Source: an uncultured Anaerolineales bacterium
GTDB taxonomy: Bacteria; Chloroflexota; Anaerolineae; Anaerolineales; Villigracilaceae
Direction: 5' to 3'
Assembly: GCA_903829085.1 (NCBI GenBank)
Contig: CAIKOL010000346.1
Coordinates: 1-45,220 of the forward strand
DNA: 45,220 nt
Position numbers and translations under genes: made by a program. The notes beneath the pieces are model-generated. The model had not been told where the DNA came from, made no database searches, and saw nothing but the letters and a program-made list of their open reading frames with translations. Each line of letters begins with the position of its first letter. Position 1 is the first letter of the stretch. Positions 11,630-40,457 of the stretch are shown here, one piece after another.

Positions 11630-11648
11630 CACGTTGAGGGAACTTCAC

Positions 11649-19433: not shown

Positions 19434-22400
19434 CTAGGGTTTAATATGTCTTAATGCTCGTTCCAGTAGAGCCAGAAGTTCACTTTCATTCAGAGAACCT
19501 TTTCGGAGTAGCTTCTGGCCAAAATCTTTCAATTGTGCTTGTTGTTCGCCTGTAAGGTCTGCTCCACTGACAACGATAACTGGAATGTCATTTAATTCTG
19601 AAGTGGTACGTAACTTTTCCAGGATGGTAAAGCCATCCATATCGGGCATGAACAGGTCGAGAATAACCGCATGTGGAGGATTCTTCGAAAGAATTTCCCA
19701 ACCCTGACGCCCACCTTCCGCCAGGATTGGAGTGAATTGGCCCTGTTGAAGGATTTTTCCGTAGAGGCGCAAATCTTTGGGGTCGTCATCAATCACAAGG
19801 ACATTATGAATTTCACCCTCAGCGTTTAACTTGTTGAGGGAGTTAAGCAAATCATCCTCAAGGATTGGTTTGACCAGGTAATCAGCTGCACCTAAACTAA
19901 ACCCTTTTTCTTCTTCTTCCAGAATGCTGCAAACTAGAACTGGAATATCACGTGTGGTGGAATCTTTTTTAAGCTCTGCAAGCACAGTCCAACCATCCCG
20001 CCCTGGCATCATGATATCAAGCGTGATGGCATAAGGTTTGAGTTGGCGTGCACGCTCGACAGCTTGTAATGGATCGGTCAAGCCAACAACTTGAAAACCT
20101 TGTGGTTGGAGGTAGCGTTCATATAACGCAATGACCTGGGTATCATCGTCGATGGCAAGAATGATTTTCTCTTCAGTCGCTCCTTCGAGCCCTGCTTTAT
20201 TCTCCTTTATTTTTGGAAGAGGCAGGGTGAAATAGAAGGTGCTGCCTTTATCGATCTCACTTACAACATCGATCAACCCGCCGTGTAATTCAATCAGGCG
20301 GCGGGATATGGATAACCCGAGACCTGTCCCACCGGTCTTGCGGGTAGGCGTGGAATCAACTTGTGAGAACGGCTGGAACAGTTTTTTCTGATCAATCAGT
20401 GAGATTCCAGAGCCAGTATCAATTACTTTGACAACAACATCTGACTGTCCATCTTTTTCCGTTTCCAAACTTGCCGTCACGGTAATCGTACCTTCCTCAG
20501 TAAATTTCGCAGCATTAGAAAGCAAGTTGATCAAAACCTGGCGCAGACGCATGGCATCTGCGCGAATAATAGGGATATTAGGCGCGATATCCAGATTAAT
20601 CTTAATGGGTTTTTCTTTTACGAGCCCTGATGCAGTTGGAATTACGCTTTGGAGTAGTTCAGCAATATTGACATCATCGAAGGACAATTCCATCTTGCCT
20701 GCATCAATCTTGGAGCTGTCGAGGATGTCGTTAATTAGGCGCAGTAAATGCTGGCCTGAATTATAAATTGCTGTGAGATCCTGATCCTGGAGGTCTGTGA
20801 TGGGACCATCAATCCCTTTAAGGATGACGCGTGAGAACCCGATGATGGAATTAAGTGGTGTCCGAAGTTCATGACTCATATTTGCCAGGAATTGACTCTT
20901 GAGCCGATCCAGTTCGCGCATTTCGTTGATGGCTTGTTGTGCAAGTTCATACGAACGGGCGTTATCGATGGCAACAGCTACCTGGTCAGCCAGTGTCTGC
21001 AAAACAGCAATATCATCGGGTGCGAAAGCATCCACTTCCTTGGATTGAAGGTCAAGCGCACCAACCGTTCGTTTGCCAATGTGCAGCGGAATGGCAGCCT
21101 CCGAACGTGTGTCCGGGAGCAGAGGGTTTGGGCGGTGAATTGGATCAATTGTAGTATTGTTTACGACCAACGGAGTTCCTGTCGAAGTGACAGTACCCAC
21201 AATGGAGCGTGAACCTACTTGTAGAGCGTGTTTACGTCGCAGCATTTCTTCACCGGCAGCACCGGTTGCAGATTTCAAGACAGTATTAAAACCAGTTTCT
21301 TCTGTATTGAATATCGCCACATGATAGAAACCGAAACGTTCGCGGATGAGGCTCACAGTCCGCGAGAAGAGCGTATCCAGGTCTAGGGTTGAAGTGACCA
21401 GCCGGCCAATTTCAGAAGAAGTCGCCAGATATTCATTTTGCCGGCGAAGCGTTTCTTCAAAATTTCGGCGTTCTGTAACATCTCTGGCAACCCAGTAAAC
21501 CTGGTTTTCGTTCAGTTTGGAAATACTTGCATCAAACCAATAAGTCCTATTTTCAAGAACGAGAGGATATTCAAGTTTGTTGACTTCTCCCGTTTCAAGG
21601 GTTGCATGAATGGCGCCCAAAAATGGTTCGTGAGTTTCGGGTGGTAGAACATCGACGATTCTCTTGCCTAGCATATCGTCAGGTGGTTTGAACAATCGGG
21701 AAGGATTTGTAGGAGCAACGCGAACGTAGCGACCTTCATTATCATAAACGATAATCACATCTGTCATCGATGTGAACAGGGCGCGCAATTCAAGCTCAGA
21801 TTGTTTCCGCTCAATGGCTACGGCAACCTGGTTGGCGACAAACGCGAGCGTATCACGGTCACGATTGGTCAAGCGAACATTCTGCTGATAGGTCTGGATC
21901 GCCAGAACTCCAATTACATGTTCGCCACTGCGCAATGGAACTCCCAACCAATCAATACCAATTGTGCCGCTTCCTTCCACATCCCCATTTTTTATCATTA
22001 GTGCATATATTTCTGGGGTGGCAAGTAAGGGCTTACCGCTACGCAAGACAAAACTGGTGAGATTCTTTCCTAGGCTCGCTGGAGGCAAGGGTTCGTCGTG
22101 TTCGTCAATATAGTATGGGAAACTCATTATGTCGGTCTTGTCATCGTATGTGGCTACGTAGAAGTTATCAGCCGGCATAAGTGTTTCTATGGATTGTTGA
22201 ATACTGCGCATCAAGGTTGTTATGTCGGGCGCAACCAGCGCAGCTTCTGAAATTGTACGGATGGCTTCCTGAACGCTTTCAGCAAATTTGCGTTGTGTAA
22301 TGTCTTTATCCATACCACGGTAACCGGTTCGGTTGCCGTTTGCATCGAGAACGGGTACTGCACTGGTTGCAATATAAATAGAATGGCCGTCTTTCGCTCG

Positions 22401-25109
22401 AAGCATTTTCTCAATATCAATTGCCTGGCCACTATTTTCGATTCCTTGCAGCAGCAATTCGGTAACCCGCACGGTCTCTTTGGGGTCGGCCAATTGATCA
22501 GCTGAAAATCCCAACATTTCTTCAGGTGTGTAGCCAAGGACATCTTTGACCCGCTCGGATAAATAGGTGTATTGCCAGTCCAGGTTGGTTTCCCAGATGT
22601 AGTCTGCGCTAACTGAAACTACATCCCGGAAGCGAGATTCGGAAGAGCGGATCTGATCGAACAATCGGGCGTTTTGAATGGCAATCGATGCTTGGTTTGC
22701 AATCGCTATGAGCAATTGCTGGTCATGCTCCGTATAGGCATTTGGTTCATGGTATGCTTGAACAGCCATTACCCCAAGGATAGTGTCGCTGATCAGGAGT
22801 GGCACCCCCAGCCAGGATCTCGCAGGTTCACCGACGCTTTGCATTCCATGAGCTAATAGCCAACCTTCAACGCCATCTGTAATAAGCACTGTGTCATGAG
22901 TTCGGATGATATACCCTGTGATCCCTTGCCCTGCCGGGAGCCGCGAAATTTCCTTGTCAATTTTCGATTCAGTGACGTTAAGCTGAAAAACATTCTCGTT
23001 TCTTTCGGCATCGAATAGGGCAATATAAAAGTTTGTCGTATCAATCAAGCGGGAAACTCCGCTATAAACTTCAGCCAATACCTGGTTGAGATCAATATGG
23101 GATGCCAACGCTCTGCCAAGATCGTTAAGCGCAGCCGTTTCCTCGGCGCGTATCTGTGTTTGCTGGAATAGATTGGCGTTTTCAATTGCAAACCCAATTT
23201 GACGACCAATCGTGCGTGTCAGTTCGATTATGTGCTCCGGGAAAGGTCTGGGGGTTTGATTAAAAGTACACAGGGTGCCCAACACCCGCCCGCGGGCTTC
23301 CAGAGGCACCCCGAGGTAGGCTTGAAGGCCATTCGACAACATCGCATCGACGTCTATCGGGGCACCTCGGTTTAAATCTTCAATTGCTAAATAGTTCTTT
23401 GATAAATAGACTTCCTCACAAAGTGTTCCACCCAATCCGGATTTTTCTGCGAACTTCCTTAATGAATCTGGTAATCCCCGGATACTGGCAAGTTCCAGTC
23501 TCTGACTATCCTGGTTAAACATACTAATAAGACCACCCCCCTGACCTAACAATACCAGCACCTGAGCCAGGACTTCATCCAGAATATTCTGCAAATCCAG
23601 TGTGCGGCTTGCAGAACTGATAATTTGATTTAAAGCTCCCAATTCTTCATTGCGGGAAGTTGTCTCCACGAACAAGCGGGCATTTTGAATTGCGATGGAA
23701 GCCTGACCAGCGATGGAGGTCATCAAACTACGGGTATGGAAGTCGAAAGCAAATGGATCATCGTAACTTTCAATCCCAATTACCCCAATAGGATGATTAC
23801 CGAGAAGCATCGGTACACCCAGCCAACATTTCGATTCTGAGCCAACAATGTCAAGACCAAGAGCTTGTATTTTTTGAACCGTAAAGTCTTCGATAAGCAA
23901 GGGCTCGCCATGGCGGATGATATATTCGGTAAGTCCATTTCCTGCTTTCCTTGATGAGAAGCTGATTTGTTCTCCTTTCTCATACAGGAGGGGGAAACTG
24001 ACCATGTCATGCGCTGCATCGTATAGAGAAATGTAAAAACTTCTTGTATCCAGCAGGCGAGACGCAAATTGGTGAATATATTCGACAATACCTTTTATAT
24101 CAAGCGTTCCGGACAGGGCACGTGCCATTTCGTTCAAAACTGCCAGCTCCTGGGCGCGGTTTTCAGACTGCTGAAACAGGCGTGCGTTTTCAAGAGCAAT
24201 TGCTGCCTGGTTGCTAATGGTTCTAATTAACTCAAAGTCATGGTCTGAAAAGAGTTTGGAAGATTGGATGCTTTGAAGAACAATCGCACCAAGAGTGCGA
24301 CTTCCCAGTACCAATGGGACACCGAGCCAGCAAAGGGCGGGTTTGTCACTGCCAATTGCGACAAACTCTATTCCCAATTGTTCCATGGCAGCAGGAACAT
24401 TTTCTGGAATGAAAAGAGGTTGGTTGGAACGCAAAACGTAATCGGTAAGCCCATTTCTCAACGGGCGGGCAGGTGCGGAATCCCGAATGCCATCGTTGAT
24501 CGTAATGGGGAATGAAATGAGTTGTGTTTCCTGTTCATATTGGGCGATAAAGAAGTTTGTGGTGTCCATCAGCCGAGATGTAAACCGGTAAACCGTGTCG
24601 GCAATATTTGAAACATCCAATTGGGTAGAAAGTTCACGGCCCATTTCGTTAAGAAGTGTCAACTCCTGGGCCTGGCGCTGGGTTTGTTGGAACAAGCGGG
24701 CATTTTCCAATGCAAGTGAGAGCTGGTCCGTAACTTGCTGGATTAGCAATTGTTCTTCTTCACTCCAATGCCGTTCTGTAGATGGGTTGGCTACTTCAAT
24801 CGCGGCCCAGGACTCGGAATCGATACGAAAGGGTGTCGTAAGAATATTTAATGCCGGGCTTGAGAAACTTTGGGGGTGCGCATCTGGGGTAAGAGGCTGG
24901 GTACCCATTTCGAATTCCGAATGCTGGGAAATGGAAGGATCGCCGACGGAATGGGCCAGCTTCTGATCTGGAATGCTTCTTCTGGTTTCCGGCTTGATGT
25001 CAGACGTTACTTCTATCTTGCGTTGATCAGGAGTAGTGTCTTCGGCTTGTTTAATATCTATAAAGAGTTTGTCAAGCCGTTTCTGTATTCGTTTGCTGGA
25101 CATATTCAA
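19434..25109 (-). CDS. Giant hybrid histidine kinase: N-terminal half-GAF, about 6 GAF, 2 PAS, HisKA, HATPase_c, 2 REC
   Basis: 1891 aa; several NARLFQQ...LNEMGRELS...LDV GAF boundaries; PAS (SRFRDVVSVSADYIWETNLDWQYTYLSERVKDVLGYTPEEML); FLANMSHELRTPLNSIIGFSRVIL; GTGLGLSISRRLIELHGG; two REC (ILAIDDD...LDIMMPGRDGW; VLVIDDD...LDLFMPDMDGF). A start at Met 25103 is equally possible. Confidence 0.93.
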   Translation of the reverse strand: MNMSSKRIQKRLDKLFIDIKQAEDTTPDQRKIEVTSDIKPETRRSIPDQKLAHSVGDPSISQHSEFEMGTQPLTPDAHPQSFSSPALNILTTPFRIDSESWAAIEVANPSTERHWSEEEQLLIQQVTDQLSLALENARLFQQTQRQAQELTLLNEMGRELSTQLDVSNIADTVYRFTSRLMDTTNFFIAQYEQETQLISFPITINDGIRDSAPARPLRNGLTDYVLRSNQPLFIPENVPAAMEQLGIEFVAIGSDKPALCWLGVPLVLGSRTLGAIVLQSIQSSKLFSDHDFELIRTISNQAAIALENARLFQQSENRAQELAVLNEMARALSGTLDIKGIVEYIHQFASRLLDTRSFYISLYDAAHDMVSFPLLYEKGEQISFSSRKAGNGLTEYIIRHGEPLLIEDFTVQKIQALGLDIVGSESKCWLGVPMLLGNHPIGVIGIESYDDPFAFDFHTRSLMTSIAGQASIAIQNARLFVETTSRNEELGALNQIISSASRTLDLQNILDEVLAQVLVLLGQGGGLISMFNQDSQRLELASIRGLPDSLRKFAEKSGLGGTLCEEVYLSKNYLAIEDLNRGAPIDVDAMLSNGLQAYLGVPLEARGRVLGTLCTFNQTPRPFPEHIIELTRTIGRQIGFAIENANLFQQTQIRAEETAALNDLGRALASHIDLNQVLAEVYSGVSRLIDTTNFYIALFDAERNENVFQLNVTESKIDKEISRLPAGQGITGYIIRTHDTVLITDGVEGWLLAHGMQSVGEPARSWLGVPLLISDTILGVMAVQAYHEPNAYTEHDQQLLIAIANQASIAIQNARLFDQIRSSESRFRDVVSVSADYIWETNLDWQYTYLSERVKDVLGYTPEEMLGFSADQLADPKETVRVTELLLQGIENSGQAIDIEKMLRAKDGHSIYIATSAVPVLDANGNRTGYRGMDKDITQRKFAESVQEAIRTISEAALVAPDITTLMRSIQQSIETLMPADNFYVATYDDKTDIMSFPYYIDEHDEPLPPASLGKNLTSFVLRSGKPLLATPEIYALMIKNGDVEGSGTIGIDWLGVPLRSGEHVIGVLAIQTYQQNVRLTNRDRDTLAFVANQVAVAIERKQSELELRALFTSMTDVIIVYDNEGRYVRVAPTNPSRLFKPPDDMLGKRIVDVLPPETHEPFLGAIHATLETGEVNKLEYPLVLENRTYWFDASISKLNENQVYWVARDVTERRNFEETLRRQNEYLATSSEIGRLVTSTLDLDTLFSRTVSLIRERFGFYHVAIFNTEETGFNTVLKSATGAAGEEMLRRKHALQVGSRSIVGTVTSTGTPLVVNNTTIDPIHRPNPLLPDTRSEAAIPLHIGKRTVGALDLQSKEVDAFAPDDIAVLQTLADQVAVAIDNARSYELAQQAINEMRELDRLKSQFLANMSHELRTPLNSIIGFSRVILKGIDGPITDLQDQDLTAIYNSGQHLLRLINDILDSSKIDAGKMELSFDDVNIAELLQSVIPTASGLVKEKPIKINLDIAPNIPIIRADAMRLRQVLINLLSNAAKFTEEGTITVTASLETEKDGQSDVVVKVIDTGSGISLIDQKKLFQPFSQVDSTPTRKTGGTGLGLSISRRLIELHGGLIDVVSEIDKGSTFYFTLPLPKIKENKAGLEGATEEKIILAIDDDTQVIALYERYLQPQGFQVVGLTDPLQAVERARQLKPYAITLDIMMPGRDGWTVLAELKKDSTTRDIPVLVCSILEEEEKGFSLGAADYLVKPILEDDLLNSLNKLNAEGEIHNVLVIDDDPKDLRLYGKILQQGQFTPILAEGGRQGWEILSKNPPHAVILDLFMPDMDGFTILEKLRTTSELNDIPVIVVSGADLTGEQQAQLKDFGQKLLRKGSLNESELLALLERALRHIKP

Positions 25110-25857
25110 TCAGCTCCTCAGCCAGACTGCGATACTGTTGTGCGCCACGACTGGTGGGTTTATATTGGGTGATGGGCAGACCAAGGATCGGACTTTCGCG
25201 CAATTTTGTATCGATTTCAATGATGGTTTTAAAGATACCGACTCCGAAAGCACGGTCTAATTGATCATGAATATCGCGGTGGGTGCGGTTCCGTTGGTCT
25301 AGTAAGGTGACTAGTATACGATAAGCAAGATTAGGATTTTCATCAGCACGAACTTGGCGGATGATTGTCATCATGTCACGGAGGGCATAAGCCGAGAAAT
25401 ATTCAGCCTGGGTTGGGATGATAAGCAGATTGGCAGCGGTGATCGCGTTGATTGTAATGGCTCCCAACGATGGGGGGCAATCAATTAGGATGAATTGGTA
25501 AGGCAGAGGATTTACTGCATCAATCGCAGTTCGTAATCGGGAAGTGTAATTCAGATAAACGGGCATCATCTGTTCTGCCTGTTCAAGTCGATTGCTTGCT
25601 GGAATAATGTCAAGATTGGGAAAATTCGTCGCAAGGCATGAATCCATCACTGGGGATGTGTCCATAAGAATACTTGCGGAATTATTTGTATCCTTTCCTG
25701 GCTCAAACCCAAGAGCAAGAGTCAGGTTGGCTTGCGGGTCCAGGTCAATGAGCAGCACCTTTTGACCGGCCTCGGCGAGCGTTGCTCCCAAGTTTAACGC
25801 AGTGGTAGTCTTTGCCACCCCGCCTTTTTCATTGGATATTGCGATAGTATAGAACAT
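25072..25857 (-). CDS. ParA/Soj-family ATPase (orphan, no ParB adjacent)
   Basis: ISNEKGGVAKTTTALNLG deviant Walker A, LLIDLDPQANLTLALG, FILIDCPPSLGAITINAITAANLLIIPTQAEYFSAYAL; overlaps the start of the giant kinase by 38 nt. Confidence 0.93.
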   Translation of the reverse strand: MFYTIAISNEKGGVAKTTTALNLGATLAEAGQKVLLIDLDPQANLTLALGFEPGKDTNNSASILMDTSPVMDSCLATNFPNLDIIPASNRLEQAEQMMPVYLNYTSRLRTAIDAVNPLPYQFILIDCPPSLGAITINAITAANLLIIPTQAEYFSAYALRDMMTIIRQVRADENPNLAYRILVTLLDQRNRTHRDIHDQLDRAFGVGIFKTIIEIDTKLRESPILGLPITQYKPTSRGAQQYRSLAEELIEYVQQTNTETA

Positions 25858-25883: not shown

Positions 25884-28427
25884 TTAATTTTCGGCTTTTC
25901 GATTTTTTTTATTTGGCGTACCATGTGTTTTAATGGCTTGGTTCACTGGCAGGGTTACATAAGGCCGGATCCGAATTTCGTCTGTTCCGAGTACTTTCTT
26001 TAGTTCTTCGATCGCTGTTGTGAGCATGGTTTGTGGGTCGGTTGTGGTACGAATTTTTGAAGTGATATCAGAAACCGTGCGTTCGCGGTTGGCCTGCCGT
26101 GTGGTTTCTTCAAATAACCGCGCATTTTCAGCTGCAAGGGCCACTCGATCTGCAACAGCGTTGACCAAGTCGATTTGCTCTTGACTCCAAGAATGACCTG
26201 ACGGCAACTGTACAATGAGATTCCCAATAGTCTCGCCTCGCAACGAAATTGGGACCGAAAGAGAATTCGATGCCGATTTTTGTTTTTTGTGTTCACTTTC
26301 GGGAGTGTTCGACAACTGAAGAGGAGCCTCAATAGGTTGGGCACTTGTTCCAGAGTAACGGAATCCAATCAAATTCTGTTCGCTAGGCAAACGGCTCCAG
26401 GTCTGGTGCGAATATTGGCGAGAAAGGGCTTCAGCCTCTGCAAGTGAACGTCGTGTTGTATCAAACAAACGAGCATTATCGATAGCAAGGCTGACTTGGT
26501 CAGCAAGAATAGCAAGTACTTTTATGTCTTCGTCGGAGAAAGCGTTTGTCTGGAGGCTCTGAACATCCAGCACACCAACAGTTCGCGCACCAATCTGTAA
26601 AGGAAGCGCCATTTCAGCGCTGGTTTCAGGTAGATCGGGGTTATTGAAGTAGGCTGCATCATCTCCTACATTACGAGCAATGCGTATTGTTCCTGATGCG
26701 GCGACGCGCCCAACAATCCCTTGTTCTCCGATCATAAGGCGATGACCGCGATTTAACATTCTACGCCCTCCCTCGCTATTGGCAGCGCTAAGGATGGCAT
26801 ATTGATTGCTTTCATCATTTAGAAAAATACCAACATGGTAATAATTAAACTGCTCGCTTATTAGCGTGGTTATTCGAGGCAGGAGTTCTTCGGTTTTACG
26901 GATTGAATTGATTGCTTGTGTGATCAGTGCGACAACTTCAAGTTGGGAAGCACGCCGCTCTGCATGGCGAGATTCGGCTTCTAATTCGGAAGTTCGTTCA
27001 GCAACTCTATCTTCCAAAGATTGGATATTTTCCCTTAAGGTAGTGGTCATGACATTCAGTGTCTTAGCAAGCGTCCCGATTTCATCCTTACTTTGTACTT
27101 GTATTTTCGCATCAAGGTCACCGTTCGTGATTTCTTGTGCTGTCCTGGTTAATGCTGTTAATGGATTAGTTAATCCATTACTAATTAATAGCGTTGCAAG
27201 TATGGCAATTACCAAGATCCCCGCTACCAAGAATATACTTTGAGTTACCGTATTCCTTGTCACTTGGGCGATTTGCTCTTTAGCGAGGATGGATTCTGCA
27301 AGCATTTCACTGGAAGGAACAATGATAGCCAAGCCATAATCTACTTCAGGGATTGGCTGATAAACGATAAATCGATCTACCCCGCCGATTGATATTGTAT
27401 CCAAACCACTCTCGCCCGATGCTATTTTCGCTAGCAATATATAAAAATTCGAAGGAACATTCTTAATTGTTGACTGATAAAATAATGCACCAAGTGGAGT
27501 TGTTGAAGGCGATAAACCAAAATCCTTGTAACCTGAATCGGGCATCGCGACCAATCGTTCGTTCTTATCGATTAGAAAAGCATAGCCTGTTTCGCCAACA
27601 TGGATATTGGAAACTAAACCTGTAATCCTGTTAAGCTGAATATCCATGGCTACAACGCCAGCGAAATTTCCTCCGGAGTCGTATACGGGGGAACTGGCCG
27701 TTACAACCAATCCATGCAGAGCTGCATCGAGGTATGGGTCAGACCATACAGCTGTGCGTCCCGGATTTGATATTGGCGCAGCTTTGACGAACCACGGGCG
27801 CGTGGTCACATCGAAATCGGGCGGTACAAGTGATGCCAAGTCGACATTGGGGTAATAGAGCGTTTCACCAGATGTACCACCGAAGTACATGGCAACTGTG
27901 TCTGAATTTTTAGCAAGGATCGAAGGTACTAGGAAATCCAATTGTCTGATTGTATTTAACTCTGACACTAAACGATAGGATAAATCAATTTTGGCAGGTA
28001 TAAAAATTGAGGCCGGGTCTGTGTTTGAATTATCCCAACTTCCATTTGGTAAACGAACCAATGATTGAGTGGCATCCCAGTAATTTCCATTGCTGAAAAT
28101 CATCTCGTGGGAAAGTAAATTCTCGGTGGTGTCACCGACTGTAATAATGTTGTCTTTTATCGACGCGAAGAAATTATTAAGAACAAGTGCTTGTTCTACG
28201 CTTGTCGAGGTTAATTTCTCTTCTGCCTGCTGTTGGACGTTTGTATCCAATTGAGTGGTCAAATAGGTGCTTTCTTGCTGGGAACGAAGAAAAACATAAT
28301 ATCCTGTTCCTATAATTGCAATAAATGCAATTAATATGTTTCCCAGGATCAACTTGGTTCGGAGGGTAATCGATCCAAGTGATAGCCGTTTTGAGAAAAA
28401 CGATCTTTTGGGTAATGGAATTTTCAT
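25884..28427 (-). CDS. Membrane receptor: dCache-like sensor, TM, HAMP, GAF, degenerate GAF, C-terminal half-GAF tail; no kinase domain
   Basis: DVTTRPWFVKAAPISNPGRTAVWSDPYLDAALHGLVVTASSPVYD...GVVAMDIQL (Cache-type); LTNPLTALTRTAQEITNGDLDAKIQVQSKDEIGTLAKTLNVMT (HAMP); YYHVGIFLNDESNQYAILSAANSEGGRRMLNRGHRL (GAF). Confidence 0.88.
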   Translation of the reverse strand: MKIPLPKRSFFSKRLSLGSITLRTKLILGNILIAFIAIIGTGYYVFLRSQQESTYLTTQLDTNVQQQAEEKLTSTSVEQALVLNNFFASIKDNIITVGDTTENLLSHEMIFSNGNYWDATQSLVRLPNGSWDNSNTDPASIFIPAKIDLSYRLVSELNTIRQLDFLVPSILAKNSDTVAMYFGGTSGETLYYPNVDLASLVPPDFDVTTRPWFVKAAPISNPGRTAVWSDPYLDAALHGLVVTASSPVYDSGGNFAGVVAMDIQLNRITGLVSNIHVGETGYAFLIDKNERLVAMPDSGYKDFGLSPSTTPLGALFYQSTIKNVPSNFYILLAKIASGESGLDTISIGGVDRFIVYQPIPEVDYGLAIIVPSSEMLAESILAKEQIAQVTRNTVTQSIFLVAGILVIAILATLLISNGLTNPLTALTRTAQEITNGDLDAKIQVQSKDEIGTLAKTLNVMTTTLRENIQSLEDRVAERTSELEAESRHAERRASQLEVVALITQAINSIRKTEELLPRITTLISEQFNYYHVGIFLNDESNQYAILSAANSEGGRRMLNRGHRLMIGEQGIVGRVAASGTIRIARNVGDDAAYFNNPDLPETSAEMALPLQIGARTVGVLDVQSLQTNAFSDEDIKVLAILADQVSLAIDNARLFDTTRRSLAEAEALSRQYSHQTWSRLPSEQNLIGFRYSGTSAQPIEAPLQLSNTPESEHKKQKSASNSLSVPISLRGETIGNLIVQLPSGHSWSQEQIDLVNAVADRVALAAENARLFEETTRQANRERTVSDITSKIRTTTDPQTMLTTAIEELKKVLGTDEIRIRPYVTLPVNQAIKTHGTPNKKNRKAEN

Positions 28428-28445
28428 AGTTATTTTTTCTTTTTA

Positions 28446-30341
28446 TTATTCTGCAGTCTTATCGTTACCTTGAAATTGGATAACTACTTCTGAGCCCGGG
28501 ATGACGCGGCCGAGTTCTTCGACAGCGGTCTGCAGTACGTTGCGCAGGTTAATAGAACCACCGACTTTTGAAGCAATTTCACCAATAACCGATTCAACTT
28601 CAGCACGTTTGCTGATCTGTTCATACAAACGGGCACTTTCCAGAGCTGAACCCAGTTGTTCTGAAAGGGTACCGGCGGCAGCAATTTCTTCCTCGGTCCA
28701 TTGACCTCTTCCTTGAGTTTTTTCCAAGCGGATGGTACCAATCACATCCTCGCGAACTTTGATGGGTAAATGGAGAGTGGTGTTGTCATTCGTCAGAATA
28801 GGTTTCCCAGATTTAATTACCATCAAGGATTCGGGACTGGCTTCATCCGTAATTGGAAATACTGAACGAGCAGCGCTAACAAATCCAATCTTTTCTGATT
28901 TCTCCTGCAAAAGTCGTTGCCAGCCAACACGACCAGCTTCACTATACGTTCGGCGAGTGGATTCGAGAGCGGCTTGAGTGCTGGCAAAAAGGCGGGTATT
29001 TTCAATGGCGATGGCAACCTGGTCAGCGAGAACCTTTAATATACTAACGTCTTCTTCCGTAAACGCCATTTCCTTTACACTTTGAACATCCAGTGCACCA
29101 AGGATCTTCCCACCAACAATGAGTGGCAATGCCATCTCGGAATGTGTCTCAGGAAGGTCGGGGTTATTGAAAAAGACTGCATCCTTTCCTACATCCAATG
29201 CGATACGAGCCTGCCCACTCCCAGTCACATAGCCGACGATACCAACCTGACCAACTTTCAACTTATGCCCCCGCGCCAACATACGCTGTCCGCCTTCGCT
29301 GTTCGTTGCACGTAAAACGGCGTTCTCTTCTGTATTGTCAAGCAAGAAAATACCTACATGATAGAATGCAAAACGCTGACTGATGAGGCGTGTTACCTGC
29401 CCAAGTAGTTCATCAAGATTGCGGATGCGGGTAACCGCCGCACCGATTTCTGCTGTAGCCTGCAATTGGGAAGCACGTCGCTCCAGAGCCTGTGTGCGCT
29501 CAGCAATCCGTTGTTCAAGGCTATCAATAAGAGAATGTAATTGGTCTGCCATTGAGTAAAAAGATTTGCCCAGTAACTTGAGTTCTGAACTTGGAAAACC
29601 TATATTTGGCCGGAAATCAAGTTCCCCTTCCGAAATGCGAACAGCAACCTGGGTCAATGTAGAGATTGGTGCAGCCAACCTATCGCCCAAGAACCATCCT
29701 GCCAATCCAACCAGTGGCAATGAAAATACGAAAATACCGATAAACCAATATAGAACTTGCCTTTCATTAGCAAGGATCTTATTCGCTGAAATGTCAACTC
29801 CGATGATACCTGCTAATTGGTTATCAGAAGTGTAAAAAGGGGCATAGGCTGAAAGGAAGGTTCCATATTCATCTGTATAAAAATCATTTTCAACCATCGG
29901 GTGATCCATGGTTGTAAAGTTAGCCGCTAGCACTGGCCCAGGAATATTATAGCGTTCGCCAAATGCAGACCCAAGCGGATCACCAGGTTCGACTGCGTCC
30001 ACCACAAAATAGAGACCTTGCGAGTCAAAACGCATCGTGTAGACGAAAGCTAAATCTGGATCCGAGCTACGAATTCGCAGATTCTGTAACCGTATCTGTT
30101 CAAATGCTGGATCGGATGATGAGTTAATACTTACAAACAAGTCACCATTTTGTTGGAGGGAAGCCAGGGAAACAATATTCAAAAGACGTTGGCGTAGATC
30201 GGTGCGGTCCTGCTGGCGATAGATTGTATAGCTTATTGTTAACGTTAGGCCAACAGCTAGAAATGCCAATAGTATAAAACTGAGAACCAGTCTCGACCGC
30301 AAACTTATTGTTCGCATGAATGGAGAATTTCGGGTTTTCAC
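28446..30341 (-). CDS. Membrane receptor: extracytoplasmic Cache-like sensor, TM, HAMP, GAF, degenerate GAF, half-GAF tail; no kinase domain
   Basis: N-terminal TM, periplasmic loop with FYTDEYGTFLSAYAPFYTSDNQLAGIIGVDIS, HAMP, FYHVGIFLLDNTEENAVLRATNSEGGQRMLARGHKLKVGQVGIVGYV. Confidence 0.87.
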   Translation of the reverse strand: MKTRNSPFMRTISLRSRLVLSFILLAFLAVGLTLTISYTIYRQQDRTDLRQRLLNIVSLASLQQNGDLFVSINSSSDPAFEQIRLQNLRIRSSDPDLAFVYTMRFDSQGLYFVVDAVEPGDPLGSAFGERYNIPGPVLAANFTTMDHPMVENDFYTDEYGTFLSAYAPFYTSDNQLAGIIGVDISANKILANERQVLYWFIGIFVFSLPLVGLAGWFLGDRLAAPISTLTQVAVRISEGELDFRPNIGFPSSELKLLGKSFYSMADQLHSLIDSLEQRIAERTQALERRASQLQATAEIGAAVTRIRNLDELLGQVTRLISQRFAFYHVGIFLLDNTEENAVLRATNSEGGQRMLARGHKLKVGQVGIVGYVTGSGQARIALDVGKDAVFFNNPDLPETHSEMALPLIVGGKILGALDVQSVKEMAFTEEDVSILKVLADQVAIAIENTRLFASTQAALESTRRTYSEAGRVGWQRLLQEKSEKIGFVSAARSVFPITDEASPESLMVIKSGKPILTNDNTTLHLPIKVREDVIGTIRLEKTQGRGQWTEEEIAAAGTLSEQLGSALESARLYEQISKRAEVESVIGEIASKVGGSINLRNVLQTAVEELGRVIPGSEVVIQFQGNDKTAE

Positions 30342-32056
30342 TTCCCGGCTCCTTTATCTTTAGCACGCTTATGGGTTTCAGGCTTTATGGAATTTTGCAG
30401 CCTTACTTCGGCCAGCTTGAGACCAAGAGAATTCCTTATTTCCTGAACAGCAGTCTGGAGTACCACATCAATATCCAGCGTTTCGCGCATTCTGGTAGCA
30501 GCCTGCCCGATGGCTCGTTCACGCTCTGCACGCATTTGAGCATCTGATACCAGACGAGTATTTTCGAACGCCAAGCTTACGCGTGATGCAATTGTTTCAA
30601 GCAGTGTTATCTCATCTGCCAGCCACTCGTACTGCGGATTTTTGTTTTCATAGCCGATGATACCAATGACATTTCCACGCAAAATGATGGGAGCGATCAA
30701 CCTGGATCGGGGGTTTTTATCTGTTGTGGAATAAGTTGTGGAATTCCCAGCCAGTAATTGCTGATTAGTATCAAAGGGAAATGTTTCTGTAACAGGTAGA
30801 ACCTGAAGCTGGTCGTAGTGATAGCCGAGCGTTCCTCCGCTCTTTATCTGCTCCCAGGCACTTTTTGTGGTTTTAGCAGCCAACTGATCGATTTCTTTTA
30901 TGCGGTTTTGCAATTGTCCCACCAGTCGAATATTTACGATGGAAAGTGAAACCTGGTCAGCAAAAGTTTGCAGGATTTGCTGATCTATATATTGCGGATC
31001 CGGGGAAAGGGTTTGGATATTAATTAATCCGATAATTCGTTCCCCGAAAAGAAGGGGAAACGAAGAGTTGGTTTTGGTGTCAGATAACTGGATTGGTCGC
31101 TCAAGATAAAATTGTTGTTCGCCAGCCTTGTAATGCAACCTGTCAATCGGCGCGTAGGTTAACCCGATATCCCCGTGAATAATGGCTAATTGGTATTCAC
31201 TGGCAAGCAAAGCGATTCCTTCTGGACTGTTGGTCGCCTTTAGAACAGCAAATTCCTCGTTTTCACTAGCGAGGTAAATCCCAACATGATCCAGTTCTAG
31301 ATGATCTACCAACAATTGGATGGTCTGTTCGAGGAGGGCGATTTCATCTTTTACCTGACTTGCCAGGCGAGCAGCTTCAATGACAGTTTGCAGAAGAATG
31401 TTTCGCTGTTCAAGGGCTACTGTTCGCCCCTGTAACAACGAGCGACTCTCTTCCAATTGAATATTGGTGGCATGTGATTCTTGTTCATCTTCCAAAATCC
31501 TTTTAGAGGAAGCTGTAATGCTTCGAATAGCCAGAAATAATAATAACAAGACAGCAGTGAACGTTATCGTGTGGGAAAGTAACACCGAGGACGTGGATAC
31601 ATAGGCTTGGATAGCCAACCAGCCCCGGGTTTCTGCATAGATCAAGCCAACTCCGGCAAAAACTGTTAGGACAGTAAAAGTGATTCCGCTTTGGATACCC
31701 ATTGTCAAACCGGCGGCGAGAATCACAATGGCGAAAGAAGCAAAACCCGAATCACGAACGCCCCCATATAAAATTTCTTCCAACAGGATAACCAGCCATA
31801 ACAACGAATTAAAGAGAAAACTTGCCAGTCGAATATGTCCGGAATGTAGTAATGATAACAAACCCAATTCAAGTATTACTGCAACAATGGCAATGATGAA
31901 CTGTCCGGGCGGAGGGAAGAACAAAGCGTATAAGAAATAAACAAACGTCAAAGCAAGCGTAAATAACAGAATGGTGTTTATATTCTGTGCTTGAATACTC
32001 TTTTCTGGAGTATCAAAGGTGGGAGCCTTAAGAAGATTCCTAAAACGAGCCAACAT
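30338..32056 (-). CDS. Membrane receptor: multi-TM N-terminus, GAF, degenerate GAF, half-GAF tail; no kinase domain
   Basis: About 6 hydrophobic segments in the first about 190 aa, then GAF-like LDHVGIYLASENEEFAVLKATNSPEG; 4-bp overlap with the next gene. Confidence 0.82.
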   Translation of the reverse strand: MLARFRNLLKAPTFDTPEKSIQAQNINTILLFTLALTFVYFLYALFFPPPGQFIIAIVAVILELGLLSLLHSGHIRLASFLFNSLLWLVILLEEILYGGVRDSGFASFAIVILAAGLTMGIQSGITFTVLTVFAGVGLIYAETRGWLAIQAYVSTSSVLLSHTITFTAVLLLLFLAIRSITASSKRILEDEQESHATNIQLEESRSLLQGRTVALEQRNILLQTVIEAARLASQVKDEIALLEQTIQLLVDHLELDHVGIYLASENEEFAVLKATNSPEGIALLASEYQLAIIHGDIGLTYAPIDRLHYKAGEQQFYLERPIQLSDTKTNSSFPLLFGERIIGLINIQTLSPDPQYIDQQILQTFADQVSLSIVNIRLVGQLQNRIKEIDQLAAKTTKSAWEQIKSGGTLGYHYDQLQVLPVTETFPFDTNQQLLAGNSTTYSTTDKNPRSRLIAPIILRGNVIGIIGYENKNPQYEWLADEITLLETIASRVSLAFENTRLVSDAQMRAERERAIGQAATRMRETLDIDVVLQTAVQEIRNSLGLKLAEVRLQNSIKPETHKRAKDKGAGK

Positions 32057-32091
32057 GTGCTTCGCCTCTGTATCAATGACGTTATGGAATT

Positions 32092-34107
32092 TTAGTTCGT
32101 GTCTTTATCTTCTTGAGAATCAATGCCAATTTGGATGAATGTATTTGTTGTTCCAAGCGCAATACCTAATTCACGGACAGTATTCTGGAGCAACGTGTCC
32201 AAATCGGTTGATTGTTGAATTCGGGTAGAGATTGTACTTATTTGTTGTTCGCGGGAAGCAAGACGTTGAGCATCCTGTAGCAAGCGTGCATTTTCCAAGG
32301 CCAGACCAACCTGGTTGGCTACTTCAATTGCAAGGGTTTGATCAGAATCACTCCAGGCATCCCCCGCTTTTCGCAATAACCTAATTGTACCGATATGTTG
32401 CCCGCGAAGTGTGATGGGTGTGTTTAAATGATTGGATTCTATGTCGTGAGCCAGTGGTTGAATATCTGATGGCCTGAGCGGGGATAGTCCGATAGATGTA
32501 TATCGAAAAGCCTGTTTGTTCCCGCGAACGCGTTGCTGCCAGACTCGGCGGATGTTTTCATTAGTGGTGGCTTCCAGTTGTTGGAGAGCATTTTGACTTT
32601 CTCCCAGTGATCGGGCATTCTGGATTGCCAACCCAATCTGATCTGCTAATGTTTGAACAATTTCGATATTTTCTTGAGAGAACTCTTCTTTTTCTGTGGA
32701 CTGAATGTCAAGAACGCCAATTACCTTGCCGTGCGCTGTCAAAGGAACGGCTGCTTCAGAATGAGTCATGGGCAGATCTGGGTTTTCAAGAAATGCCGTG
32801 TCTCTCCCAACGTCCCCAGCGATGTGTGGACGATTCTGGTAGGCAGTTGAACCCACAATGCCTTGTTGCCCAACCTTGAGCCGGTGTCCGCGTATTAGCA
32901 TACGTTGTCCGCCCTCAGATGATGCCGCTTGAAGAACGGCATACTCATTTGTATCATTGAGTAAGAATATAGCACAATGATAATAACCAAACCGTTCAGA
33001 AATCAATTTTACGGTCTGAGAGAGGAGCGTATTGATATCTTGGAGCTGTGCTGCGTCGCGAGCGACCTGTGAGGCGGCTTGAAGTTGGACGGATTTGCGA
33101 ACCAAGTCAGAAGTTCGTTCTTCAACTTTGTGTTCAAGTTCCAATTGCGTACCGCGTAGCTCGTCCAAAAGCTGATTCAGACGAATGGTAAGTTGAGCTG
33201 TTTCATCGGATGTGATAATGATTGCTCGCCGGGAGTAAATCCCTTTCCGGATTTCATCCATTGTTTGAATCATTTCATGCACGGGTTGTGAAACAGAAAG
33301 AGTTAGGAATCCTGCTTGGCCAAGGCCAAATACTATGGATACCACACCTATTATGGAAGCTTGCACAAGATATTGGTGGATTTCTGTTGCAGAATTTGAG
33401 CCGACTGCTGATGCATTGAGTAGTTTTTGATAACCAAGGGCTCCAATCATCAGGATGGTGGACAGTATCAGCGAAGCAATAATAGCCTGCAAGCGAACGG
33501 TCATTCGCAATCCAGATTCTGCATTTTGTCGCTCTGAATTGCGTGGTAAAAGAGCACGGCGAATGGGAGCGAGAATGCGATCCAAGGTAAGGGTTTCTTG
33601 GATCACGACCCAGGTGCTTGAGATAAATCCACCAATAGCAACATGGATAATTTGAATGGTGGTTGCGCCTCCTACCCGGTACATGAATAGGACACCTGGA
33701 AGAACTACCAATAAATAAGCAGTTGCAATTTCTATCAGGGCAAAGCGCCAAGGGAGGATGATTATTTCGCGCCAGGCTTGTATTTCCAATTCATTTTCAT
33801 CTTTTCCTGCTGGAAGGGTTTTTCCTTTGAAAAGGATATCCAGACGTGTACGGGCGTGTGTGGTTGCCATGGCCGTGTATATTGGGATGACCAGGTTCAC
33901 AAATAGGACAAATCCAAAAACACTTATCAGTAATTCCACGGTTTGAAGAGCAGAAAAATTGGCTGTAATCAGGATGTAATAAATACCAATTGCCGCAGCA
34001 AAATATGATATTAATTGTGTGATGGATTGCATACGCAGGACATAACTGCCTCCCCACCTGGAGAGCAAGCGTTCCAATCGATCTTTTTGGCGAATTGGTT
34101 TATTCAC
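32092..34107 (-). CDS. Membrane receptor: about 6 TM, HAMP, GAF, degenerate GAF, half-GAF tail; no kinase domain
   Basis: Multiple TM, HAMP-like SVSQPVHEMIQTMDEIRKGIYSRRAIIITSDETAQLTIRLNQLLDEL, YYHCAIFLLNDTNEYAVLQAASSEGGQRMLIRGHRLKVGQQGIVG. Confidence 0.85.
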   Translation of the reverse strand: MNKPIRQKDRLERLLSRWGGSYVLRMQSITQLISYFAAAIGIYYILITANFSALQTVELLISVFGFVLFVNLVIPIYTAMATTHARTRLDILFKGKTLPAGKDENELEIQAWREIIILPWRFALIEIATAYLLVVLPGVLFMYRVGGATTIQIIHVAIGGFISSTWVVIQETLTLDRILAPIRRALLPRNSERQNAESGLRMTVRLQAIIASLILSTILMIGALGYQKLLNASAVGSNSATEIHQYLVQASIIGVVSIVFGLGQAGFLTLSVSQPVHEMIQTMDEIRKGIYSRRAIIITSDETAQLTIRLNQLLDELRGTQLELEHKVEERTSDLVRKSVQLQAASQVARDAAQLQDINTLLSQTVKLISERFGYYHCAIFLLNDTNEYAVLQAASSEGGQRMLIRGHRLKVGQQGIVGSTAYQNRPHIAGDVGRDTAFLENPDLPMTHSEAAVPLTAHGKVIGVLDIQSTEKEEFSQENIEIVQTLADQIGLAIQNARSLGESQNALQQLEATTNENIRRVWQQRVRGNKQAFRYTSIGLSPLRPSDIQPLAHDIESNHLNTPITLRGQHIGTIRLLRKAGDAWSDSDQTLAIEVANQVGLALENARLLQDAQRLASREQQISTISTRIQQSTDLDTLLQNTVRELGIALGTTNTFIQIGIDSQEDKDTN

Positions 34108-34127
34108 GGGCTACTCCTTTATACCGC

Positions 34128-36059
34128 CTAATCCATTTTCAATTCAATCGTTGCTTCATCTGCTCGCAATGCCCGACCGAGTTCTTTAATGGCAGTTTGC
34201 AGAATCAGGTCCGTATTCGGGGAGGACCAAATTTTCCCAGTGATTTCAGCAGCCAGCCGTTCTCGCAAGGCTAATTGTTGACTCTCTTCCAACAAACGTG
34301 CATTTTCCAGAGCAAGGGAAGCCTGCGTGGCAACAGCCTCAATGAGATCGCGTTCTTCGGATGTCCAATCTTGCTGGCCTTCCAAAGATAGATGCCCGAT
34401 GATCTGATCTCGCAAAGTTAAAGGTACATTAACGATAGAGTCGTCTTTTCCGGTTCCAAGCGTTTCCACTCCTGAAATGTATTCAAATCCACCATTTTGA
34501 CGAGCGGTTTCAGACCATGCTTCTGAAACATACAATCGATGTGTTGTGCGCAGTTCTTCCAAGCTTGCCTGGGTCTCCTGGAAAAGACGCGCATTTTCCA
34601 ATGCAATTGCCACCTGATTTGCCATGCCCTGGAGAGTATCAATTTCCTGTGATCCAAAGGCCGCCTCTTGTGTGGATTGCACATCCAACGCCCCAATTGT
34701 CCGTCCGCCAACGATTAACGGAAGGGCAATTTCTGACCTTGTATCTGGCAGTAAAGGGTTATTGAAGCGGACTGGTTCTGAACCGACATCTTCAGCAATA
34801 CGGGCCTGTTGTGTCGTAATTGCTGCCCCGACCATGCTTTTCCCACCGAGTTCAAGGCGATGGCCACGGGCTTTGAGAGTTTGGCCGGCGGTCCCGGTGG
34901 CATCTTTGAGTTCTGCCCAGCGATTTGCAGCATCAGTGATGAAAATTGCCGCATAATAATAGTTAAAACGGTCGGTAATCAGGTTTACTACTTTGGAAAT
35001 TAGTAGATTAGTATCCAGGATACTACTGGCAACCCGGCCAACTTCAATTGTAGCATTGAGTTGTTCGGTCCGGTCGGAAACCCGTTTTTCCAGGCCGGTT
35101 TGCAGTTCCTCCAGCCGAGAGATCATCCGGTTGAAGTACACAGCTAGTTCGCCAACCTCGTCTGTGGCTGTGATAGGAACCCGCTGTTTCAAATCACCAT
35201 CTTCAATCTGTCTGAAGGTTTTGATCATTTGGCGAATTGGTTGGGAAATGGAATTTGAAATAACAATAGAGATTCCGAGACCAATTAACAGAGAAAAAAC
35301 ACCAACTATGATTGACTGGACCTGTAAATTTGCGAGAACGTTTAGCGAACCAATTTCTCGGTAAAGAACTGTTACTGTCTGGTGATACCCGATTGGAGCT
35401 ATATTCAGAATTGTGATAAGAATAAGGGCAATGAACGCTGCAAGTATCTTGACCAACAGACGTATACCCCTGACCCCCGCTGTCTGCGAATCGAAACCTT
35501 GTGGAGTTAATATTTGGCGGACGATTGTAAACATGCGTTCGACAAAAAGGACTTCAAAAATTTCAATTATTAGACCAGATGCGATCCCGGCGAAAATCAG
35601 ATAAAAAACTTGGTCACTATCGCCTTTTAATACAAGAGATAGATAAGTGGCAGAGAGGGGCAGAATAAATACAAACAACGTAATGAGTGCAATTCCAACA
35701 TAGCGCCAAGGTAAGGAAGTAATCTGTTTCCAAGCCAAGGTGTCTTCAGTATCACCACTTACAAGAGGTCTATTAATAGCCCACTTCCCTAGGCGTAAGA
35801 TTACTGCTCTGTTTGAAGTGTGGGAGTAGATTAATAGAAATATGTTCCGGAAGAGCATCAGTAAAGCGGTGACAATCGCTACCTGAGTTATTTGCAGGAT
35901 TGTTAGTTCCGAATTAATTCTCATCAGGAACATCGTAAACATAATTCCTAATAGAATAGCGATCAATTGTGAAATGATGAGCACGGATATGATATAAAAT
36001 CTGCCAGTCCTGTTAAGCAACCACCCAGCGAAGTTGTTGGAAGGAGGAAGGGTATTCAT
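34128..36059 (-). CDS. Membrane receptor: about 6 TM, HAMP, GAF, degenerate GAF, half-GAF tail; paralogue of 32092..34107
   Basis: Shared W+QITSLPWRYVGIALIT block with the neighbour; SISQPIRQMIKTFRQIEDGDLKQRVPITATDEVGELAVYFNRMI (HAMP); YYYAAIFITDAANRWAELKDATGTAGQ (GAF). Confidence 0.85.
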   Translation of the reverse strand: MNTLPPSNNFAGWLLNRTGRFYIISVLIISQLIAILLGIMFTMFLMRINSELTILQITQVAIVTALLMLFRNIFLLIYSHTSNRAVILRLGKWAINRPLVSGDTEDTLAWKQITSLPWRYVGIALITLFVFILPLSATYLSLVLKGDSDQVFYLIFAGIASGLIIEIFEVLFVERMFTIVRQILTPQGFDSQTAGVRGIRLLVKILAAFIALILITILNIAPIGYHQTVTVLYREIGSLNVLANLQVQSIIVGVFSLLIGLGISIVISNSISQPIRQMIKTFRQIEDGDLKQRVPITATDEVGELAVYFNRMISRLEELQTGLEKRVSDRTEQLNATIEVGRVASSILDTNLLISKVVNLITDRFNYYYAAIFITDAANRWAELKDATGTAGQTLKARGHRLELGGKSMVGAAITTQQARIAEDVGSEPVRFNNPLLPDTRSEIALPLIVGGRTIGALDVQSTQEAAFGSQEIDTLQGMANQVAIALENARLFQETQASLEELRTTHRLYVSEAWSETARQNGGFEYISGVETLGTGKDDSIVNVPLTLRDQIIGHLSLEGQQDWTSEERDLIEAVATQASLALENARLLEESQQLALRERLAAEITGKIWSSPNTDLILQTAIKELGRALRADEATIELKMD

Positions 36060-39000
36060 TTCGTTTCTTTCCCTGTTGGATCGGAAGATGTAGTCTGTTT
36101 ATTATCTACATCAAACTTGATCTGGGCACGACGAGCACCAAGTGCCTTGCTCAATTCACTTGTGGTAGTCGCCATGATGGTTTGCATGTCAGTGGAGCGT
36201 CGAATTTTACTGGTCACTTCGTAGAGCAATCGGTCTTTTTCCACCTGGTGACGGATTTGTTCCAGGAGACGGGCATTCGCCATAATTGCCGCAAGGCTAC
36301 CCCCCAGTGTGCCAAGTAATTCCTCATCATTTTCACTATAAGCGCCGGTTTGATCGCTTTCTACATTCAGAACCCCAAGCAGTTCTCCGCGATAGGAAAG
36401 GGGAATCGCCAATTCTGAACGAACGTTCGAACCAACTTCAATATAGCGCGGATCTTGTGTAACATCATTGATTCGTTGAAGTTGTTGATGTACAGCAACC
36501 CAGCCAGTGATGCCATCGCCCAAAGGAACTTCCACCTGCTTAACTTCCTCAGAATAACCGGCTGTTGCCTTCACTGTTAGTATCTTCTTTTCTCTGTCAA
36601 GCAGTAAGATGGCCACCCGATCTCCCCCCAATGTGACCTGGAGGCCTTGAGCAGCGCTGTTCAAGGATTCTTCAAGAGTAGTTCCAGATGCAGCCGCAGT
36701 GGTTACATGGTGAAGAAGGCGGTGCTGAGAAAGGTGTTCTTGTGTCTCTGCGAACAATTCGGAATTTATGACTGCCACAGCCAATTGATCGGCAAGGATT
36801 CGCAAGACACTGATATCCTCTTTCTTAAAGGAATACGGTTGAACGCTCTGAACGTCCAGGGCTCCGAGAATACGCGCCCCTACTTTAAGCGGAATCGCTA
36901 CTTCCGCCCGAGTATCGGGTAACAAAGGATTGGCATAATATGTTGCATCGCGGCTTGTGTCATTTACAATTAGAGGTTCACCGCTTCCGGTGACATAACC
37001 TACAATTGACTTGGAACCGACTTTGAGTTTATGCCCGGCACGTTTCATTTGCATGCCAGCTTCGCCCGTAGCTTCACGGATGACGGCGTATTCGTTGGAA
37101 GGATCAATCAAGAACACAACTGCGTGGTAAAAATTCAAACGCTCGCGGATAAGCGTAACCGCTTCGCTCAGCAATTCGCCCAAGTCAAGGGAACTGGAAA
37201 TATCACGGGCAATTTCAGCCGCAGTCTGGAGCTGTAATGCGCGACCTCTTGTTTCGTCCAATAAACGAGTATTATGGATTGCACCAGCAATTTGCGCTGC
37301 GAGCGTGGTTAGAAAACGCATATCTCCGTCATCAAATGCACGTTCGTGTTCGGTATCCTGAACGACGATAGCGCCAATCACATCCCCTGATGTAACCAAA
37401 GGTACACCCAGCCATGATTTTGCAGTCTTTCCTACTACTTTTGCACCCAGAGCTGCTGAGCGTTTTTCAGTATCTTCAACGATCATTAAGGGCTGTTTCG
37501 TACGGATAAGGATGGAAGTCAATCCTTCTCCAAGCGGGAATGCTTCAATTTGTGAGATTTCACTACCAGAGATATTCTTCTCAAACATATAGGGGATGGC
37601 GATAGAGTCGGTCCCTGCATCGTAAAGAGCAACCAGGAAGTCTATATCCCCTAAAGTCTGGCGAATGTGCCCATGGAGAGCGCTGTAAATTGCGGGTAGA
37701 TCTCTGAGTGATGAGATTTCCTGACTGGCGAGTGTAATCGCTTCCAATTCAAATACGCGGCGTTCGGTACTTTTCGTTTCAAGAATGCGGTCAAGAGAAA
37801 TTGCCGTTATTTCTGCGATGCTAATATAGGGCTGAATATTCGATATTGATAATGGGTTTTTTTCCCTGGTTCCAATAAGTATGATGGCTGAGATCGACTT
37901 GTTTCGCAAAACGGGTACCAGCGCTACACTAAATATTCGAAATTGTTGCAGAAGTTTAATTAAGTTGCTCGGTAAGGTATTTATACGCGCTTCTTCACCG
38001 ATAAATATCCCTGTCGAAAACCAGGATTCGAGCTCTCCCAGTGTGATTGCCATAGACTCTGGCAGGAGCAATCCTCGCTGCGCTCCCAGACCGGACTTTA
38101 TCAAGATCCGAAGGCTTTCTCCTTCAACAGCCAGATAGAGGAATAAATAAGGCGCCATTGAAAAGATTTCTTGAATTTTTTGATAGATATCATTTTCTGT
38201 CTGCGCTTGGCCGATCTGATAGCCAAGGCGATATATGTCAGCCACTTCCTGGTTGCCTGAAAAACGTGACTCGAGCGATCTAACATTTTGAAAAACGAAT
38301 GCAATCTGGTTGGCGAGTGTCTGGAGGGTCACAATTGTTTCAGAATCAAATGAATTAATATTAATACTTTGTACATCCAGCGCTCCAAGCACCTGGTCCC
38401 CAGTCATGATAGGCACAGCCACTTCTGCCTGTGTCTCTGGTAATAATTCATTCTTGAGATGAATTGGATCTTCGATTACATTGGAGACCAATCGGGGCTG
38501 TTTGTTGGCTGTCACCCACCCGATGATGGATGGCGACCCAACCGCCAGGCGATGAGTCGCTTTCAATATTTGTTTTGCACTTGGCCCCTGAGCCGCGCGA
38601 AGGACAGCATACCGTCCGGTGTCATCAATTAAGAAAACGCCTGCATGGTAATACTGAAATCGTTCGATAATCAAGTTGACGGTTTTATTGAGTAATGCGT
38701 CCAAGTCAAGTGAGGTGGTGATATCCTGAGCAATATCTGCAGCGATCCGTATCTGCCGTGTTCGTTCCTCAACCCGTTGTTCGAGGGTGGCTTGCAGCGA
38801 ATGTAATTTTCGATTGGCGTCAACAACTTCTCCTAAACGTTGGCGTTCAAGGAAATTGCGTGCAAACATCACAATGAGTACTGTACCGCCCAAAGCTGTG
38901 AAATTGATAACCAGGAAATAAGCGCTTAACGAAGTTAAGCTAGGCGCTACGAAGGGTACCAATGCTGTAGCAATAATATTGAAAAGGACTAGCGCCACTG

Positions 39001-39475: not shown

Positions 39476-39940
39476 TTAGCTCATCTCCCAAACTGGATTT
39501 CCAGCGAGAATAAAGCGGATCTGGTCTGGAAAACGGTCGGGGTCAAGCGGTTTACCAAGAAAGCCATCGAAACCGGAGCTTCGAGCCTTGTTCATCTGTT
39601 CAACACTGGCCTCAGCGGTAACGGCGATGATTGGAACTTTCTTTAATCGTTCAGATGCCCGGATTTTCTTAAGCGCACCGAATCCGTCTTCGTAGGGCAG
39701 GCGGATATCCATGAGAACGAGATCGAGACGCGGAAGTGTATCAGCATATTCAACAACTTCGTAACCCGATGTTTTCCATTCGCAATGGATGCCAAGATAA
39801 CCCAGCATGCGGGCAATGAGAACAAAGTTCGATACATTGTCTTCCACCACCAAGACTGTGCAATCTTTAGGAATGGTATATTTCCGGGTTGGCTGGGTAT
39901 CGGAGGTGGGGTTTTGAATAGTATCTTGTGGATCAGACAT
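39476..39940 (-). CDS. Stand-alone response regulator receiver protein
   Basis: TVLVVEDNVSNFVLIARML...LVLMDIRLPYEDGFGALKKI...IIAVTAEA...GFLGKPLD; no output domain. Confidence 0.92.
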   Translation of the reverse strand: MSDPQDTIQNPTSDTQPTRKYTIPKDCTVLVVEDNVSNFVLIARMLGYLGIHCEWKTSGYEVVEYADTLPRLDLVLMDIRLPYEDGFGALKKIRASERLKKVPIIAVTAEASVEQMNKARSSGFDGFLGKPLDPDRFPDQIRFILAGNPVWEMS

Positions 39941-39942
39941 AA

Positions 39943-40317
39943 TTATCTTTTCCTTAGGTAGACATCAACTTGCTGAGGAAGAAGATCAACATCAATTGGC
40001 TTTTGGATATAGCCATCACAGCCAGCCTCGAGGGATTTTTCGCGGTCGCCACGCATCACGTTGGCGGTCAGTGCTACAATGGGAACGCTTTCAAAACCTG
40101 GAAGTGAGCGGATACGGGCGGTTAAAGAGTAGCCGTCCATATCAGGCATATTAATATCCATCAAAATTAAGTCCGGGTGCAGGGTTTTAAGTGCTTCCAA
40201 ACCTTCTCCAGCGTTCCCGGCCTCTACGATTTTATAACCCTCTGCCGTTAATACTCGCCGGACAAGCAAACGGTTATCGAAATTATCTTCAATATTGAGG
40301 ATGGTTGCAGAACCCAT
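39943..40317 (-). CDS. Stand-alone response regulator receiver protein
   Basis: MGSATILNIEDNFDNRLLVRRVL...LILMDINMPDMDGYSL...VALTANVM...GYIQKPID; the ORF extends to 40344, but Met 40317 has a GGAGG upstream. Confidence 0.92.
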   Translation of the reverse strand: MGSATILNIEDNFDNRLLVRRVLTAEGYKIVEAGNAGEGLEALKTLHPDLILMDINMPDMDGYSLTARIRSLPGFESVPIVALTANVMRGDREKSLEAGCDGYIQKPIDVDLLPQQVDVYLRKR

Positions 40318-40457
40318 AAATTTCTGAGGCCTCCGATAATCCATTTTAGCATGTCAAGAATAGCGGCGCATAACAGCATCCTTGCAATCTCCACCAAAAA
40401 AACTGGCTGGAATTGGCGGGAACGTTTACAATAAAAGCAGACGAAAATAGGAGCGAA

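Follow-up and report, generated by a model that had tools for sequence, protein, structure and literature searches.

Six receptor genes on a contig from an Anaerolineales bacterium raise the question of why all of their products should finish in the same short block of residues. The sequence-only reading of the window (the whole stretch of DNA analysed, 45 220 nucleotides) had described a C-terminal block of about 45 residues common to the six receptors. This was borne out: six minus-strand receptor ORFs between 25884 and 39412 each finish with a homologous tail of 41–44 residues, with tail profile scores of 74–80 bits. The tails, all on the minus strand, are located at 25956..26084 (receptor 25884-28427, a stub of GAF alpha1-alpha2-beta1, 78 bits), 28464..28595 (receptor 28446-30341, 75 bits), 30389..30520 (receptor 30338-32056, 74 bits), 32119..32250 (receptor 32092-34107, 74 bits), 34131..34262 (receptor 34128-36059, which terminates exactly with the tail, 78 bits) and 36104..36235 (receptor 36056-39412, 80 bits). 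Pairwise identity between the first tail and tails 2–6 was 28–42%, and between 0 and 22 variable hydrophilic residues follow the tail. Upstream of it the receptors carry Cache, HAMP and GAF domains, as identified with Pfam. The tails of the six receptors themselves gave no Pfam match, GAF (PF01590/PF13185) included, and searches of NCBIfam and Pfam assigned the tail to no family. A profile of the six tails matched only those six at E ≤ 1 in the whole 3.2-Mb draft genome, which contains 85 GAF_2 matches. The six E-values (6e-22 to 4e-20) are circular, as the same sequences built the profile; the lack of a seventh tail is still informative.

The block had also been said to resemble the start of a GAF domain and then to stop, a description that can now be sharpened. 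The tail profile was compared with the PDB using hmmsearch and matched 6oap (2.8e-12), 8w26 (3e-8), 2lb5 (2e-7) and, among others, 6bhn and 6xhg. In these structures the match falls on the N-terminal part of GAF domains of the phytochrome superfamily, and the alignment extends through model position 39. The cyanobacteriochrome GAF domains (6OAP, 6BHN and 6XHG) matched over their N-terminal ∼39 residues with E-values from 3e-12 to 9e-6, but their chromophore-binding part has no counterpart in the tail; the tail proteins stop before that part of the domain, and the chromophore-binding Cys and the pocket are absent. Foldseek comparison with the PDB gave no matches other than GAF domains and phytochromes, a result dominated by the ordinary GAF. 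As judged by profile alignment, the tail corresponds to alpha1, alpha2 and the first strand of a GAF domain of the phytochrome/cyanobacteriochrome type. It ends at beta1 and does not contain a complete GAF fold.

The tail was found, in clusters, in 12 of 21 genomes (the genome of the window and 20 relatives). Surveys with a 46-sequence tail profile (A2) detected it (E ≤ 1e-5) in 65 of the 199 genomes sampled from the class, with many of its families represented, and in 28 of 251 sampled from the phylum; the profile survey of C-terminal tails covered Chloroflexota. The contigs that carry an orthologue of 34128-36059 belong, where named, to Anaerolineales and other Chloroflexota. A search of genomes with an HMM of the six tails had been suggested earlier as a check and, after clusters were fetched, 209 of 218 profile matches of at least 15 bits lay no more than 40 residues from the stop; 398 distinct C-terminal tails were collected, with a median of 10 residues after the strand. 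Homologues that usually continue into a full GAF or kinase domain, which would have spoken against a functional tail, were not what was found. Among matches of at least 30 bits, those that run on comprised five complete GAF domains in kinase-domain proteins (four with tail-profile scores of 39–61 bits and one of 30) and one low-complexity extension. A limited test, using the kinase of the window as the query, detected a kinase domain in none of the 398 tail proteins. The tail is thereby shown to be a piece of a phytochrome-type GAF domain that is conserved, lies at the C-terminus and is specific to receptors. Random truncation, which the sequence-only reading had doubted on account of the shared stop at one structural point, was rejected because the position near the stop and the conservation persist across many families.

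The same reading had placed the block directly after the exit helix of the last GAF domain. This is correct for the sixth receptor (36056-39412), in which a full GAF domain precedes the tail, but not for the other five (ORFs 25884-36059), in which the preceding domain is a reduced mini-GAF. The core of the mini-GAF, a strand hairpin and exit helix, lies before the tail on the minus strand at 26097..26267 (76 bits with the mini-GAF profile versus 35 with the C-terminal half of an ordinary GAF), 28608..28781 (65 versus 21), 30533..30706 (69 versus 27), 32263..32433 (78 versus 22) and 34275..34439 (79 versus 30). In the AlphaFold2 (AF2) model of one receptor the mini-GAF consists only of a two-strand hairpin between long helices. 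Directly upstream of the tail, a mini-GAF was present in 301 of the 398 receptors and an ordinary GAF in 94. Complete GAF domains in other kinases are matched by the tail profile in their N-terminal part (42–65 bits) and by the mini-GAF profile in their C-terminal part; the four full GAF domains matched by the tail profile scored 34–56 bits with the mini-GAF profile versus 17–38 bits with the ordinary C-terminal half. Completion in cis of a receptor's own mini-GAF by its tail was considered and gained no support, as the AF2 monomer leaves the tail strand unpaired and the last GAF of the sixth receptor is already full.

Conservation of the tail was compared with that of its surroundings. In orthologues of 34128-36059 (n = 4) mean identity was 0.79 in the tail, 0.76 in the GAF domain and 0.69 in the linker helix, and fell to 0.29 in the N-terminal part of the mini-GAF and 0.33 in the residues after the tail. 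The equivalent values for orthologues of 36056-39412 were 0.57 for the tail, 0.70 for the GAF domain and 0.13 after the tail. Conservation stops where the tail stops. A tail no better conserved than the linker, which had been named as evidence against a function, was not observed, although the difference across all paralogues (0.35 in the tail versus 0.32 in the linker helix) is a small margin. An aliphatic residue occupies tail positions 39 and 41 in 96% of sequences and position 40 in 7%, an alternation that reads as a strand pattern, and Glu27 is kept in 96% of the tails. These residue-level constraints hold across 212 tails with less than 70% identity. In a mean-field coupling analysis (397 sequences, effective number 273) the strongest antidiagonals corresponded to an alpha1-alpha2 hairpin (i+j ∼36) and to alpha2-beta1 packing (i+j 58–62); both signals exceeded those of 12 block shuffles each, which ignore relatedness. 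From the covariation, the strand seems to pack against a helix of the tail itself. The AF2 models are of monomers. For 34128-36059 (C-terminal 320 residues, 78 sequences) mean pLDDT was 92.9, and ∼90 on the tail, with a long exit helix that leads through a turn to a second helix in the tail; the mini-GAF was confidently folded and the tail strand was not docked on it. The model of 36056-39412 was weaker (pLDDT 73.9, low confidence) and showed the same helix-turn-helix. Covariation and AF2 together support a predicted helix-turn-helix in the tail.

In the genomes examined, the tail occurs in receptor clusters, most of which adjoin a kinase. The gene order of the window recurs in relatives: two receivers, 2–12 tail receptors, a ParA, a multi-GAF hybrid kinase, a fusion of a threonine-synthase-like protein with a receiver and a gene of ∼320 codons. 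The members located below lie on the minus strand of the window. The two stand-alone receiver proteins at the operon head (39476..40344) were identified by receiver matches and are conserved in relatives. The ParA-family ATPase (25072..25857; Pfam AAA_31, 1e-48) lies between the last receptor and the kinase, a position that is also conserved. The multi-GAF/PAS hybrid histidine kinase (19434..25109), with kinase matches and two receiver domains, adjoins ParA in relatives and is likely to be the output of the operon. The threonine-synthase-like PLP enzyme fused to a receiver (17740..19416; Pfam PALP 2e-63, Response_reg 7e-22) is similarly conserved, and is found beside the kinase in many relatives, including those with ParA-less clusters. 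This other type of cluster has no ParA and a short kinase of ∼620 residues. In two relatives, G149 and G177 (L125, L122), the product of the gene beside the kinase at ParA's usual place resembles a SAM-dependent methyltransferase (MYDYLLGGHHNFEVDR). At 25072-25109 the ORFs of ParA and the kinase share 38 bases, at the annotated kinase start, and adjacent receptor genes share 4 bases (30338-30341 and 36056-36059), an arrangement that suggests translational coupling. Divergent plus-strand genes at 11634-16578, encoding two GAF kinases and a receiver, stay beside the operon in several relatives.

A docking or oligomerisation role for the tail is favoured by its homology to a dimerisation element that has been tested by experiment. 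In SyB-Cph1 the helices alpha1(RIT), alpha2 and alpha6 constitute half of a six-helix dimer interface, and a fragment lacking residues 2–29, the RIT helix, is mostly monomer rather than dimer (PMC11264168). By profile alignment, tail positions 2–39 correspond to residues 16–53 of SyB-Cph1 (8W26, 2LB5), and other PAS-less phytochromes are similar; in both cases a helix-turn-helix leads into the first GAF strand. In SyB-Cph1, however, this segment opens a complete bilin-binding GAF domain, whereas the tail proteins stop after the first strand and carry it as a C-terminal module. The Ile and the Thr/Ser of the RIT triad (Arg-Ile-Thr) are retained in the tails, while Arg is usually Glu; the triad position reads mostly E-I/V-T/S (EIT in 73, EIS in 43 and EVT in 26 of the 398). 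We infer from SyB-Cph1 that the tail would mediate assembly, and gene neighbourhood together with complementary domain content points to the kinase as its partner. The tail is probably a reused GAF dimerisation element which assembles the receptors with each other and perhaps with the kinase. The two tail helices would bundle with helices of another molecule, much as they do where SyB-Cph1 dimerises, and the bundle would hold receptors as dimers or as larger mixed assemblies and relay what they sense to the operon's only kinase. Receptors with varied inputs would then share one standard C-terminal plug, mini-GAF and tail, and a single kinase, which carries the complementary C-terminal part of that GAF type (a mini-GAF) with no tail of its own. 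The tail might instead be a folding element that only ends and stabilises the dimeric coiled coil of its own receptor and makes no contact with the kinase. Homology to a dimerisation helix and the covariation signal of a self-packed alpha-alpha-beta unit are both consistent with such a cap, but it leaves unexplained why the tail is retained specifically in receptors clustered with kinases and was not found in the kinases themselves, and we consider it unlikely.

The N-terminus of the kinase bears on a further alternative. Residues 90–145 (24675..24842, minus strand) form a half-GAF of the mini-GAF type (44–48 bits versus 25–30 for the ordinary GAF C-terminal half) and are not preceded by a tail-like N-terminal part. 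The N-terminal half-GAFs of operon kinases in general are of this type (38–51 versus 18–35 bits). A mini-GAF was found in 37 of 41 kinases near tail genes, and a tail-like segment scoring above 16 bits in none of the 41. The tail and the mini-GAF of the kinase N-terminus, or of a neighbouring receptor, might complete each other in trans and so wire many receptors to one kinase. This would fit profiles that match the N- and C-terminal parts of one GAF type, the distribution of the two halves between receptors and kinases, and the strand pattern that the tail retains without a sheet in the same chain. It is at odds with the covariation, which suggests packing of the strand on the tail's own helix, and with the AF2 model, in which the receptor mini-GAF folds confidently with no tail strand docked; moreover, the middle of the GAF domain is missing from both halves. 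Kinases in certain clusters have several mini-GAFs, three in some, so a one-to-one fit between halves is not required. Such a trans pairing, though attractive, seems less likely still. That the C-terminus of one ancestral receptor was lost within a GAF domain before the gene was duplicated, leaving tails alike only by common descent, is very improbable: the receptors are tandem-clustered paralogues and common descent of the tail itself is likely, but conservation of the tail is like that of the GAF domain while adjacent stretches diverge, and its residue-level constraints and its spread over many families of the class also speak against a relic.

The N-terminus of the kinase (25053-25103, minus strand) starts MSSKRIQKRLDKLFIDI, and a motif like K/N-R-L-x-x-L-F-x-D-I was found at the start of 26 kinases on contigs with tail genes. 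The motif resembles the N-terminus with which ParB/Spo0J activates ParA. Four kinases from ParA-less clusters have it too, and it may therefore have partners besides ParA. A Chloroflexota multi-receptor system can be envisaged in which each operon supplies as many as twelve receptors without kinase domains, and these are coupled to one hybrid histidine kinase by a split GAF of the phytochrome type, made up of the receptor tail and the half-GAF of the kinase, with the complex positioned by ParA via the ParB-like motif at the kinase N-terminus; this composite is speculative and, taken as a whole, doubtful.

An assembly of receptors through their tails would work like two known systems. The stressosome also joins several sensor paralogues, the RsbR proteins, by one assembly module, a shared C-terminal STAS domain; the receptors here use another module and a histidine-kinase output, and Pfam found no STAS domains in them. 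Chemoreceptor clusters positioned by ParA homologues (R. sphaeroides PpfA; Vibrio ParC/ParP) likewise combine many receptors, one kinase and a ParA-family protein in the operon, but the kinase here is a hybrid histidine kinase and not CheA, and no chemoreceptor (MCP) signalling domain was found in the receptors with Pfam. The parent domain of the fragment and its role in the dimer are already known; no description of its use as a stand-alone C-terminal module, or of this type of operon, was found in the open-licence literature searched, Anaerolineae included. Hundreds of proteins thus retain, as a C-terminal module in its own right, the part of a phytochrome GAF domain with which that domain begins and forms dimers. 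As a sequence tag the tail marks out a large class of bacterial receptors that lack a kinase, and it leads to a specific, testable idea of how many sensors could share one kinase without arrays of the chemotaxis type.
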